Shown here: positions 1,833-8,018 of the stretch, piece after piece
Position numbering within the stretch: position 1 is the stretch's first letter
How the letters are laid out: every line of letters starts with the position of its first letter
Assembly: GCF_000233695.2 (NCBI RefSeq)
Contig: NZ_CM001488.1
Coordinates: forward strand, 460,049 to 524,048
Reading direction: 5' to 3'
DNA: 64,000 nucleotides
Source: Desulfobacter postgatei 2ac9
Lineage (GTDB): Bacteria; Desulfobacterota; Desulfobacteria; Desulfobacterales; Desulfobacteraceae
Translations under genes and position numbers: made by a program
The notes under the pieces: model-generated
Seen by the model: the letters and a program-made list of their open reading frames with translations, nothing else
The model's database searches: none
What the model was told of the DNA's origin: nothing

Positions 1833-2171
1833 TTAATCCATAACCCTTTGATACATTTCATCATTGTAACCAATCATTAGCATCTTATCGATTTCTATGG
1901 TTGGTGCTCGAAGATTACCTGACCTGCCTATTGCCGATTTCAATATCTCTTCACGATTTGTTTCATCCGGTGAAAAAGTCAGTACCTTCTTGCCCTTCCC
2001 AATATGAACGATGTCATACTGTTTGATTCTCTCCCAAGCTGATTCCAGATCAATTCCTTCCTTCCCGGCATCCGTCACCTGTCCTACCTCAATCTGATTA
2101 TCGTCAAAAAACTTTTGAGCTTTTTTGCATGATACTCAGCCTTTTCTGAAATATGCCCACCCCACTGTCAT
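1833..2171 (-). CDS. ArsC/Spx-family thioredoxin-fold protein with predicted selenocysteine
   Basis: Reading from an ATG at 2171 gives a 112-residue protein if the UGA at 2138-2136 (codon 12) is decoded as selenocysteine. The N-terminus reads MTVGWAYFRKG-U-VSCKKAQ. The UGA falls exactly where ArsC/Spx/YffB proteins carry the catalytic Cys of a CxxC or Cxx motif, so the active site becomes UxxC. Downstream residues match the family: GRSGNLRAPTIEIDK near the C-terminus is the expected cis-Pro region (RAPT) and IGYNDEMY the tail. The ATG has an excellent GGAGGGAG site 6 bases upstream, whereas the ATG after the UGA has none. A hairpin follows the UGA at a SECIS-like distance. Likely role: thiol/selenol redox reaction (reductase); true arsenate reduction is not shown. 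The alternative is a nonsense-mutated pseudogene, but the position of the UGA argues against it. Confidence 0.8.
2105..2138 (-). promoter_or_regulatory. In-frame UGA and candidate bacterial SECIS hairpin
   Basis: On the minus strand the UGA (2138-2136) is followed after 8 nt by CAAAAAA-G-CT-CAAA-AG-TTTTTTG (2127-2105). This can pair as a 9-bp stem with one bulged G and a 4-nt apical loop. Bacterial SECIS elements lie inside the coding region just 3' of the UGA, as here. The stem is AT-rich and thus weak, and its loop lacks the G usual among the first two loop bases, so this is a candidate. Confidence 0.5.
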
Positions 2172-2624
2172 GACAATCTCCCTCCAATCTATTCAAAGCG
2201 GTGATAATGGTTCCTGATAGAAATTTCGAGGACACCTTATTTATTGGCAGAAATTAAAGCATTTGTTTAAATTTATACCATTGCACGGATCAGTGCAGTG
2301 GCTCCGACTTTCCCTCATCACATTACACAAACAGGGAATAGACGGCAACAGACATTTTTCAGCGATCAGGAGTTCGAAGCCTATCTGAACCTTGATGTCG
2401 GAATGGTCCTGATCACCGCCCCGGTCTTGCAAAATATCCTGATGATTGGAAATGGAGCAGTGTCGGGGCACACATATGGATAAAAAGGATGAGATTCTTG
2501 TCAAAACAAGCCCTGCTGATCAGCGTCAATTATAATTCCCGCCGAACGACAATTAAAATTCCCGAAATTTAAAGAATCAAAAAAATGGTAAAAGCATCCA
2601 AATTTTACTGAAGGAGTGATTTGG

Positions 2625-4103
2625 ATGGTAACAAACCAACAAGTGAGGAGGTTGTTCAAGTTGATTCAATCTGAGAAGGATTTCGGGATCGCAGCAATGA
2701 AAGCAGGTATGGATGAGAAGACGGCTCGAAAGTACCGTGAAATTGGTAAATTACCAAGCGAGCTTCAACAGGAGCACGACTGGCGTACACGTAAAGATCC
2801 GTTTGAAGAGGCATGGGATAGTATCAAAGAAATGTTATCAATAAATCCGGGGTTGGAAGCCAAAACCATTTTTGAGGATATGCAGCGCAAACAGCCCGGC
2901 CGATTTGCCGATGGTCAATTAAGGACTCTGCAGCGACGGATCAAGCATTGGCGGGCCACAGAAGGTCCAGGCAAAGAAATATTCTTTGCACAAATACATA
3001 AACCAGGCGAACTATGCCAGTCTGACTTCACGCATATGGATAAGCTGGGTGTCACCATAGGCGGCGTTCCCTTTGATCACATGATCTATCATTTTGTTTT
3101 AACCTTTTCTAACTGGGAAACCGGGAGCATATGTTTTTCTGAAAGTTTTGAAAGCCTGAGCCATGGCCTGCAAAATGCCTTATGGAACTTGGGCGGTGTT
3201 CCCCATCGTCACCGTACAGATTGTTTGGCGACGGCTGTTAACAAGGAGACCCATCCGGAAGAGTTCACCCGCAGGTATCAGGATCTTATGGACCATTACG
3301 GTCTGACACCTTGCAAAACGAACCCATCCAGTCCCAATGAAAATGGTGATGTGGAGCAGCGCAATTATCGATTTAAAAAGGCTGTTGACCAGTCCCTTCT
3401 GTTAAAAGGCCACCGGAATTTTAAAGACCGGGAGGAATATGAGTGTTTTCTGTCCAAACTGTTTGGCCAACTGAATGCCGGGCGAAAAGACCGCCTATCA
3501 AAAGAACTTGAAATTTTGCATCGGCTACCCAAAACCCGAATCGACTCATGTAAAAAATTGGATCTCAAAGTCGGTCCCGGCTGTACCATACGAGTTAATC
3601 ACAACGTATACTCAGTGAACAGCAGGCTTATAGGAGAAAAAATACAGGTCCGCCTTTACATGGAATACCTGGAAATCTGGTACGGGCAAAAAAAGGTCGA
3701 TACCTTGCCGCGGTTACGGGGGGAAGGGAAGTACAAAGTCAATTACCGGCATATCATTGACAGTTTGGTCAGAAAACCGGGGGCGTTTGAAAATTATCGA
3801 TATCGTAATGACATGTTCCCCACCAGCCGTTTTCGGATCGCGTATGATTACTTAAAAGAGCGCTATACCGTTCAAAGCGCTGCGTCAAGATATCTGAAGA
3901 TTCTATACCTTGCCGCAAAAGACAGTGAAGTGGCTGTAGACAATGCCTTGACGATTTTAATTAATGAAGGCCATGAGATCAGCAAAGATGCGGTCCAGCG
4001 GCTTATGAAATCTAATGCCCCTGTTGCCGGGCCGGATGATATCCATATCCCGGCCATTGATTTAAGCAGTTATGACCAACTTCTCAAAATGGTGGAGGCA
4101 TGA
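2625..4103 (+). CDS. istA: IS21-family transposase IstA
   Basis: 492 residues from the ATG at 2625, which has AAGGAG at 2611-2616; an in-frame GTG at 2616 overlaps that site and is unlikely. The N-terminal HTH region (about residues 5-60) is followed by an RNase-H-fold integrase core: D in CQSDFTHMDK, D in HRHRTDCLATA, E in NENGDVEQRN. A C-terminal β-domain follows with HNVYSVNSRLIGEKI. IstA cuts and joins the element ends and needs the AAA+ partner IstB. The frame is intact, so the element may be active. The istB start overlaps the stop by 4 bases (ATGA). Compared with copy 2, two residues differ (Gly/Asp in the block after HMDKL and Gly/Cys in LFGQLNAG). Confidence 0.95.
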   Translation: MVTNQQVRRLFKLIQSEKDFGIAAMKAGMDEKTARKYREIGKLPSELQQEHDWRTRKDPFEEAWDSIKEMLSINPGLEAKTIFEDMQRKQPGRFADGQLRTLQRRIKHWRATEGPGKEIFFAQIHKPGELCQSDFTHMDKLGVTIGGVPFDHMIYHFVLTFSNWETGSICFSESFESLSHGLQNALWNLGGVPHRHRTDCLATAVNKETHPEEFTRRYQDLMDHYGLTPCKTNPSSPNENGDVEQRNYRFKKAVDQSLLLKGHRNFKDREEYECFLSKLFGQLNAGRKDRLSKELEILHRLPKTRIDSCKKLDLKVGPGCTIRVNHNVYSVNSRLIGEKIQVRLYMEYLEIWYGQKKVDTLPRLRGEGKYKVNYRHIIDSLVRKPGAFENYRYRNDMFPTSRFRIAYDYLKERYTVQSAASRYLKILYLAAKDSEVAVDNALTILINEGHEISKDAVQRLMKSNAPVAGPDDIHIPAIDLSSYDQLLKMVEA

Positions 4104-4855
4104 TGAGCGACAGAGACCAGATTGTAAACCATCTTAAAAGTCTGCACATGCCGACCATGCGCCGCAGCTATGAAGAAATGGCAGATCAGGCCCGGGCTGA
4201 GTCATGGGGGTATGAGCACTATCTTTTGCAGTTGCTGAATCTTGAATGTGAAGGGCGCTGGCAAAACCGGATAGCACGGAACCTGAGGGCATCCAGGCTG
4301 CCACCCTCGAAAACCTTTGAGAATTTTGATAAAAAGCGTCTTCCCATAAAGGTCGCTAATCATTTGAATGTACTGATCGACGGCTCTTTTTTAAATCAAT
4401 CTGAAAACATTTTGGCCTTTGGAAATCCTGGAAGCGGGAAAACCCATCTGTTATGTGCCATTGGTCATGAATTGATTGCACAAGGAAAACAGGTCCTTTT
4501 CATCCCATGCAGCCATCTTGTCCAGGATCTGCTGATCGCCAAAAGGGAACTTGAGTTGACAAAAAAGCTCAAAAGTCTTTCCAGATTTGATGCCGTGATT
4601 ATCGATGATATCGGATATGTCCAGCAAAGCCGGGAAGAGATGGAAGTTCTGTTCACCTTCCTGGCAGATCGGTATGAACAAGGCAGCCTGATGATCACCA
4701 GCAATCTTCCCTTTTCTAAATGGGAACAGATTTTTAAGGACCCTATGACAACTGCTGCGGCTATTGACAGGCTTGTTCACCACAGCATTATCTTCGAATT
4801 GAATGTTGAAAGCTATCGTATGGAGCAGGCCAAAAAGGAGGCAGAATCATGTTAG
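4100..4855 (+). CDS. istB: IS21-family helper ATPase IstB
   Basis: 251 residues, the normal length for IstB. Walker A is GNPGSGKTHLL, Walker B AVIIDDIGYVQQ, and the DnaC/DnaA-like AAA+ fold is clear, with the sensor-type SNLPFSKW block. IstB is an ATP-dependent target-selection factor that remodels target DNA and stimulates IstA. The ATG overlaps the istA stop, giving translational coupling. The protein sequence is identical in copy 2. Confidence 0.95.
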   Translation: MMSDRDQIVNHLKSLHMPTMRRSYEEMADQARAESWGYEHYLLQLLNLECEGRWQNRIARNLRASRLPPSKTFENFDKKRLPIKVANHLNVLIDGSFLNQSENILAFGNPGSGKTHLLCAIGHELIAQGKQVLFIPCSHLVQDLLIAKRELELTKKLKSLSRFDAVIIDDIGYVQQSREEMEVLFTFLADRYEQGSLMITSNLPFSKWEQIFKDPMTTAAAIDRLVHHSIIFELNVESYRMEQAKKEAESC

Positions 4856-6473: not shown

Positions 6474-8018
6474 TCATTTTTTTTTCTTTGGCTTTTCCAG
6501 ATAATCGACGCCTTCCTCGTAAAGGTCCTTGAGCTTGGCCTCAATTGCTGTACACAATGTCTTGAGTACTTTGATACGGGCAAAATATTTATCATTGGCC
6601 TCTATCAGGGTCCATGGGGCATAATCTGTGCTGGTCCTGTCCACCATATCCGTAACCGCCAGTTCGTACTGTTCCCATTTTTTTCGATTACGCCAGTCTT
6701 CTTCCGTGATTTTGAACCGCTTGAAGCCGGTTTGCTCTCTGGTATGAAATCTTTCCAGCTGCTCTTCTTGAGTGATAGCCAACCAGAACTTGACCACCAC
6801 CATGCGATGGCGGGTGATCTGTAACTCAAACTCGTTGATTTCATTGTAGGCCCGCATCCAGTCAGCCTCCGAACAGAATTGCTCCACCCGTTCCACCAGT
6901 ACTCGGCCATACCAGGAGCGGTCAAATATAGTTACGCGGCCTTTACGGGGCAGATGCCGCCAGAATCTCCAGAGATAGGGCTGCTCTCTTTCTTCCTCTG
7001 TCGGTGCGGCAATGGGGATAACCTGATACCCGCGTGCATCAAGCGCCCCTGTGATACGACGTATGGCCCCTCCCTTTCCTGCGGCGTCATTTCCCTCGAA
7101 CACGGCTATGACCGAGGTGTATTTAAACTTTGGATCCCTGATCAGCAGGTTCAGTTTTCTCTGGTATTTTATCAACTTTTCCCGGTACTCCTCCTTCGTT
7201 AGGGATTGCGTCATATCTAATGTTTTCAGCACGTTGACATTATCAATGGACGGCATAAGAGGAGGCGAGAGGATTTCCGGAGAAGGCTGAGCATCCCTGT
7301 CCAATCGTTCCCGAATCGCGGTAAGGATAAGCTTGCCGACGGTTAAGTTGCGGTAGCGGGCATCCGATCCTTCAATGATAAGCCAGGGCGCTTCAGCGGT
7401 TGAGGTCTGACGAATAACCTTTTCGTGAACTTCACGAAACTTGTCGTAGTTCTTGAAATGCTTCCAGTCACGCTTAGTGACCTTCCAACGGGTCAATGGG
7501 TCTTTCTCAAGCGATTGCAGTCGTTTTTTCTGCTCTTCCCTGGAAAGATGAAACCAGAATTTAATGACCAGTGCACCCTCATTTACCAACATCTTTTCTA
7601 ACTTTATTGCCCGGCCCATGCTCTGTTCCAGATCCGCATCATTTGTTCTGCCATAGGCCCTGTTCAGAATCGGCCATGTGTACCATGACCCCAGGAAAAC
7701 ACCAATTTTACCTTTTGGCGGCAGGGCTCTCCAGAACCGCCACATCATAGGTCGATCCAGTTCCTCGTCCGTGGGGTCGCCCATGCCGTGAGTTTGAATA
7801 AAGCGCGGATCCATCCATTCGTTCAACAGATTCACTGTGGCCCCGCGCCCTGCACCGTCCAATCCGCCGACCAGGATAATTACTGGAAAAGAGGATGATT
7901 CGTTCAATTCCAACTGCACGTTGAGAAGTTCTTCACGCAGGGCAGGCTCTTCTTTTTTGTATTCTGATTTTGGTATCTTATGTCCCAATTCGGCAGATTC
8001 AAACATAAAGTCCTTCAT
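6474..8018 (-). CDS. pap: Polyphosphate:AMP phosphotransferase (two-domain PPK2, class II)
   Basis: 514 residues with two PPK2 domains in tandem. Domain 1 has the P-loop VGGLDGAGRG (about 50-59) and domain 2 FEGNDAAGKGG (about 307-317). The lid region of domain 2 is the intact FDRSWYGRVLVERV, whereas domain 1 has FLGSWYTWP in its place. The second domain is thus the likely catalytic one, as described for two-domain PPK2 enzymes. The reaction is AMP + polyP(n) to ADP + polyP(n-1), in the cytoplasm. It would salvage AMP made by the acyl-CoA ligases and allow polyphosphate use. It stands alone; the ATG at 8018 has only a weak ribosome-binding site. Confidence 0.92.
   Translation of the reverse strand: MKDFMFESAELGHKIPKSEYKKEEPALREELLNVQLELNESSSFPVIILVGGLDGAGRGATVNLLNEWMDPRFIQTHGMGDPTDEELDRPMMWRFWRALPPKGKIGVFLGSWYTWPILNRAYGRTNDADLEQSMGRAIKLEKMLVNEGALVIKFWFHLSREEQKKRLQSLEKDPLTRWKVTKRDWKHFKNYDKFREVHEKVIRQTSTAEAPWLIIEGSDARYRNLTVGKLILTAIRERLDRDAQPSPEILSPPLMPSIDNVNVLKTLDMTQSLTKEEYREKLIKYQRKLNLLIRDPKFKYTSVIAVFEGNDAAGKGGAIRRITGALDARGYQVIPIAAPTEEEREQPYLWRFWRHLPRKGRVTIFDRSWYGRVLVERVEQFCSEADWMRAYNEINEFELQITRHRMVVVKFWLAITQEEQLERFHTREQTGFKRFKITEEDWRNRKKWEQYELAVTDMVDRTSTDYAPWTLIEANDKYFARIKVLKTLCTAIEAKLKDLYEEGVDYLEKPKKKK

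Follow-up and report, generated by a model that had tools for sequence, protein, structure and literature searches.

A very probable selenoprotein gene of the ArsC-related family NF041106 in Desulfobacter postgatei 2ac9

A UGA-interrupted frame and the genomic setting

The stretch of DNA analyzed here (the window; 64,000 nucleotides) comes from the genome of Desulfobacter postgatei 2ac9, which is a single contig of 3.97 Mb. On the minus strand, at positions 1833–2171, we found a frame of 112 codons running from an ATG at 2171 to a TAA at 1835–1833, with a TGA at 2138–2136 as its sole internal stop. Reading this TGA as a selenocysteine (Sec) codon would give a protein of 112 amino acids with Sec at position 12 (RKG-U-VSC-KK) and, encoded at 2127–2129, Cys15 as the presumed resolving Cys of a UxxC motif. 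With a spacing of 9 nt to the ATG, GGAGG at 2185–2181 forms the ribosome-binding site, which the first-pass annotation of this locus had noted as strong. Downstream of the UGA, a putative bacterial SECIS hairpin (2104–2118, minus strand) consists of a 6-bp stem, pairing 2118–2113 with 2109–2104, and a GUU loop (2112–2110) at a UGA-to-loop distance of 23 nt.

By contrast, a mechanical ORF list under table 11 contains only an 81-aa ORF from a GTG at 2078 at this locus. This short ORF lacks the redox motif, as had been claimed, and matched zero Pfam families at E 0.01. The accompanying claim that gene callers would miss the N-terminus holds for the table-11 list, but pipelines drawing on NCBIfam do have a matching model, since the family is already named there as a selenoprotein family.

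Other features of the window were also recorded. An open frame on the plus strand (1552–1836) overlaps the 3′ end of the gene by 4 bases and contains IDVRVIVATNKDLEK, which we take to resemble a remnant of a sigma-54 activator; a Pfam search of this frame was empty at E 0.01. An IS21-type pair (rve-domain transposase and IstB ATPase; 2616–4855, plus strand) lies upstream of the gene and divergent from it, and a two-domain PPK2 polyphosphate kinase with two PPK2 stretches in Pfam is encoded at 6474–8018 (minus strand).

The first-pass annotation had proposed a search for sel genes as a check, and the genome contains the complete set that we searched for: tRNA-Sec (73 bits; gathering threshold 47), SelA (598 bits; cut-off 268), SelB (353 bits; cut-off 242) and SelD (374 bits; cut-off 125). 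As sub-cut-off matches to the sel and tRNA-Sec models were frequent in 14 control genomes, only matches above cut-off were counted. The SelD gene (L018; genome positions 2076894–2077817) is itself interrupted by an in-frame TGA, and SelD of this strain is therefore probably a selenoprotein as well.

Family membership, fold and the exchange of Sec for Cys

The full frame matched the NCBIfam model NF041106 (ArsC_rel_Se_1, "ArsC family (seleno)protein") at 124.1 bits (cut-off 85; E 3.4e-36) over profile positions 1–107 of 107, and carries the UxxC motif of this family as U12-V-S-C15. Scores against related models all fell under their thresholds, with 15.4 bits for Pfam ArsC PF03960 (gathering threshold 24), 29.5 bits for Spx/MgsR TIGR01617 (cut-off 75.05), 21.3 bits for a second Spx model (cut-off 159), and a sub-cut-off score for the arsC_related model.

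Proteins of this kind have been catalogued before. Table 1 of PMC13188914 (2026) includes, among selenoproteins, "Arsenate reductase-like protein, NF041106, UxxC, 1", and this was the only paper found in a full-text literature search on the model number. A UxxC arsenate reductase-like protein is also listed in PMC9312934 (2022), where it is credited to the 2008 GOS survey; a table in that survey (PMC2398784) gives the ArsC-type selenoprotein as 'Arsenate reductase 2, cd03032, UxxC'. An ArsC-like selenoprotein was listed still earlier, in 2006, for the deltaproteobacterium Desulfotalea psychrophila (PMC1794560). The Desulfotalea and GOS proteins are thus both ArsC-like selenoproteins, the GOS one with UxxC, and are linked to the window gene through review tables. 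With the NF041106 protein of PMC13188914 the window gene shares a match over the whole profile, the motif and the place of Sec, in a family in which Cys forms exist, and we found no difference that sets it apart. Since ArsC-like selenoproteins are listed in papers from 2006 to 2026, this kind of protein is already known. The window gene is very probably a selenoprotein gene of the catalogued family NF041106.

Conservation was assessed in a protein alignment of 25 of the 56 distinct sequences described below (22 Sec, 3 Cys; L044 excluded), all 25 of which match NF041106. WAY, RKG, the U/C position (with U written as C), the SC of the motif and G-x-L-R-A-P are invariant in these 25 rows; outside them, WAY is altered in L032 and L038, and the second Cys is Ser in L044. 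The latter sequence is a Sec form with U-A-S-S, a UxxS variant within a UxxC family. An AlphaFold2 model built from the 25-row alignment reached a pLDDT of 95.3, and a Foldseek search of the PDB with this model returned Spx as the best match (6ghb, 5e-5), followed by ArsC-related 3gkx, 2kok and YffB 1rw1, with TM-scores of about 0.5 and rmsd of about 7–8. We describe the window protein as a small thioredoxin-fold protein of ArsC/Spx type, and "ArsC" is correct as a statement about fold, although these TM-scores and rmsd values, like the Pfam ArsC score under its threshold, count against this description.

To place the UGA in its evolutionary context, we read the family in two genome samples, which have genomes G000 and G333 in common. 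In the phylum sample, 28 of 395 genomes contained an NF041106 match above cut-off, each with one TGA within the match (28/28). In the order sample, 50 of 389 genomes did so, with one TGA in 45 and none in five; TGA positions were read in the 28 phylum loci and the parsed order loci. Of the 50 order genomes, 30 were represented by loci, and the stop count alone applies to the other 20. Altogether 58 loci were read (28 phylum, 28 further order, and two from one scan of genome contigs), and 56 distinct sequences were kept after dropping L060 (motif not parsed) and L070 (identical to L051 over the compared segment). UGA occupies codon 12 or its equivalent in 51 of these, including the window, and a Cys codon (TGC) stands exactly at that place in the other five, in agreement with the earlier claim that the UGA sits at the catalytic Cys position. 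Relatives thus carry UGA or Cys here and the genome has its sel genes, so that neither of the two findings named as refuting in the first-pass annotation was obtained. Cys15 is conserved in 50 of the 51 Sec rows, the exception being L044 with Ser. A MAG labelled Desulfobacter postgatei encodes a protein 92% identical to that of the window, with UGA at the same place. L049 and L050 (genomes G311 and G067) score under the NF041106 cut-off and have a TGA immediately before TTC-R-K; they represent a more distant ArsC-like family, probably with Sec. The 2006 survey PMC1794560 has an entry for a 'distant ArsC homolog' in Desulfuromonas. Six pattern matches in viral contigs yielded none that was confirmed as a relative, and plasmids yielded zero relatives, so that these two collections point to neither a phage nor a plasmid gene.

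The five Cys sequences (L053, L056, L062, L069 and L073) come from genomes of the genus of the window organism (G728, G698, G695, G761 and G676, respectively) and share one additional codon later in the protein. In a tree built from all 56 proteins after masking of the U/C site (109 columns, midpoint root, many forks unresolved), they form a single group (100/100) surrounded by Sec rows, which favours a single Sec-to-Cys change within the genus. SelA and SelB were found above cut-off in all 16 same-genus genomes tested (five with the Cys form, six with the Sec form and five without a family match), with the best SelB match in G731 and G763 spanning just the first ~270 profile positions. Losing the machinery is therefore not the reason for the change, given that SelA and SelB persist in the Cys genomes.

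Could the UGA nevertheless be an ordinary stop, leaving either a pseudogene or just the 81-aa ORF from GTG 2078 as the product? The short ORF is open, the long frame is broken under table 11 and the hairpin of the window is weak (see below), all of which this reading would accommodate. Against it stand the retention of the UGA in distant relatives across the phylum, the substitution of Cys for UGA in one group, the Sec machinery of the genome, and a short ORF with neither redox motif nor Pfam match. Substitution patterns on either side of the UGA point the same way. Between the window and L051, pS is 0.23 and pN 0.04 in the codons 3′ of the UGA, and the nine codons 5′ of it are identical; for these nine codons, comparison of the window with the 50 other Sec rows gave a pooled pS of 0.73 and pN of 0.23. 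With pN low relative to pS on both flanks, the sequence before and after the UGA has the look of coding DNA under purifying selection. We therefore consider an ordinary stop extremely improbable, and insertion of Sec at codon 12 very highly probable on the sequence evidence, in line with the first-pass reading of a UxxC selenoprotein starting at the ATG.

The hairpin downstream of the UGA

Among the 51 Sec rows, the best stem 13–39 nt past the UGA had a mean score of 14.37, versus 8.12 in synonymous recodings (sd 0.66, with a maximum of 10.15 over 500 sets), although the rows are related and do not amount to 51 independent tests. Stems of at least 4 bp occurred in 51/51 Sec rows, 3/5 Cys rows and 79% of recodings. 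A stricter pattern, defined after the sequences had been viewed, requires a stem of at least 5 bp, a loop of 3–5 nt located 20–25 nt past the UGA, G in the first two loop bases, and GG or GU within the first three; it was found in 45/51 Sec rows, 0/5 Cys rows and 15/1071 other offsets in the Sec genes. The eighth codon past the UGA, which holds the loop G position, also shows a bias, with Glu written as GAG in 24 of 25 cases versus 165 of 355 elsewhere (Fisher p 3.5e-7, ignoring relatedness). These comparisons show that a hairpin is conserved in the Sec relatives beyond what protein coding demands.

The published bSECIS criteria as given in PMC13188914 comprise a loop of 3–9 nt, a stem of 4–16 bp, G in the first two loop bases, a spacing of 16–37 nt and a minimum free energy (MFE) of at most −7.5 kcal/mol. 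Leaving the energy limit aside, the window hairpin (6 bp, GUU, 23 nt) conforms to them, as do hairpins in 49/51 Sec rows and 3/5 Cys rows; they are also matched at 644/1176 other offsets and therefore say little on their own. With respect to the energy limit, the window reaches −7.9 kcal/mol when folds start from the UGA and −0.8 kcal/mol for the hairpin alone, and 45 of the 51 Sec rows pass in the former case and 11 in the latter.

Taken alone, the window's own hairpin is weak. It is AU-rich, and comparison with synonymous recodings gives p 0.032 for its stem score. In the 39 nt past the UGA, the structure of lowest energy is another hairpin, which has a CAAA loop (−5.3 kcal/mol, z −0.71, p 0.23). 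The MFE of the same 39 nt is a weak test across the 51 Sec rows as well (mean z −1.11; p <0.05 in 8). The putative SECIS of the window is therefore assigned mainly by comparison with relatives: the hairpin noted in the first-pass annotation can form, and what supports it is its conservation in Sec relatives.

Gene context, likely role and significance

Flanking regions of the 56 loci (1.5 kb per side at most loci) contained 176 listed ORFs, 59 of which were picked by hand for Pfam searches. Loci with a layout like one already chosen (e.g., L023, L025, L026 and L029) were left out, and the counts therefore understate recurrence within a lineage. The top family reached 4/59: decarboxylase together with overlapping aminotransferase/lyase models accounted for 4 and rhodanese for 4, followed by rubrerythrin (3) and pyridine nucleotide-disulphide oxidoreductase (3). 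Recurring layouts, known partly from a second look at 20 ORFs, are bound to lineages. L021 and L022 have gyrase A ahead of the gene; the gene is followed by an NFACT-type protein in L022, L023 and L030, by a YifB-type ATPase in L041 and L045, and directly, on the same strand, by a rhodanese-rubrerythrin gene in L032, L046 and L048; and L053, L055 and L067 have a convergent PLP decarboxylase. No neighbour common to the whole family was found among the ORFs checked from the 56 loci listed, and since neighbours vary between lineages, the context names no substrate. The rhodanese-rubrerythrin neighbour fits a redox role and hints mildly at a part in defence against oxidants. In L059, the gene is followed by an ORF (L059:1879–3312) for a multihaem cytochrome, for which the (seleno)protein ExtKL model scored sub-cut-off (70.8 vs 250 bits).

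Two more specific roles for a selenoprotein at this locus were weighed. A true arsenate reductase would agree with the ArsC-like fold and the weak ArsC profile match. In a pairwise alignment with Spx, however, the Arg before the Pro of the Spx RRP motif, which presumably corresponds to an arsenate-binding Arg of ArsC, is Ala89 in the window protein, within the RAP that is invariant in the 25 aligned sequences. Zero arsenic gene families appear among the 25 neighbour families listed of 89 matched, and the motif is UxxC, whereas the Sec arsenate reductase is listed with UxxS (tables in PMC2398784 and PMC13188914). Arsenate reduction by the window protein is thus not supported, and we regard this role as very unlikely.

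The other role is that of an Spx-like regulator that would bind RNA polymerase and use Sec12-Cys15 as a redox switch. Spx structures are the closest solved folds, TIGR01617 and the Spx models match weakly, and the Spx/YffB proteins (6ghb, 1z3e, 2kok, 1rw1) share the thioredoxin-like ArsC fold, with the aligned Spx carrying Cys at both motif positions. They differ from the window protein, however, in having Cys in place of Sec, and identity in the structural alignments is about 16–22%. The Spx scores lie far under their cut-offs (29.5 vs 75.05; 21.3 vs 159), and the second Arg of RRP is absent, the window protein having RAP. A role as such a regulator is consequently very improbable. A selenium redox switch with an Spx-like fold, in which a Sec12-Cys15 bond would sense oxidants and control a partner, and whose redox threshold the Sec-to-Cys change would have shifted in the one group of the genus that keeps SelA and SelB with the Cys form, we likewise hold to be very unlikely.

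The explanation that we favour is highly likely as a whole: an NF041106 selenoprotein with Sec inserted at codon 12 and a Sec12-Cys15 redox centre. It is held somewhat less firmly than Sec insertion alone because it also covers mechanism and the window hairpin is weak. At the sequence level it builds on the frame, its family, the sel genes, the Sec/Cys exchange and a hairpin that relatives conserve. SelB and tRNA-Sec, together with the hairpin just past the UGA, would insert Sec at codon 12, and the Sec12-x-x-Cys15 pair would most likely serve as a thiol/selenol redox centre. In this scheme, an oxidised substrate would be attacked by the selenolate, Cys15 would resolve the intermediate, and thioredoxin or a similar reductant would recycle the Sec12-Cys15 centre.

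The window gene is a clear example of a gene start that is lost from a plain ORF list and recovered from the raw sequence. The family also offers a natural Sec/Cys pair within one genus, in which SelA and SelB are kept in all the genomes tested, and such a pair is useful for asking why a lineage drops Sec yet keeps the machinery to insert it.
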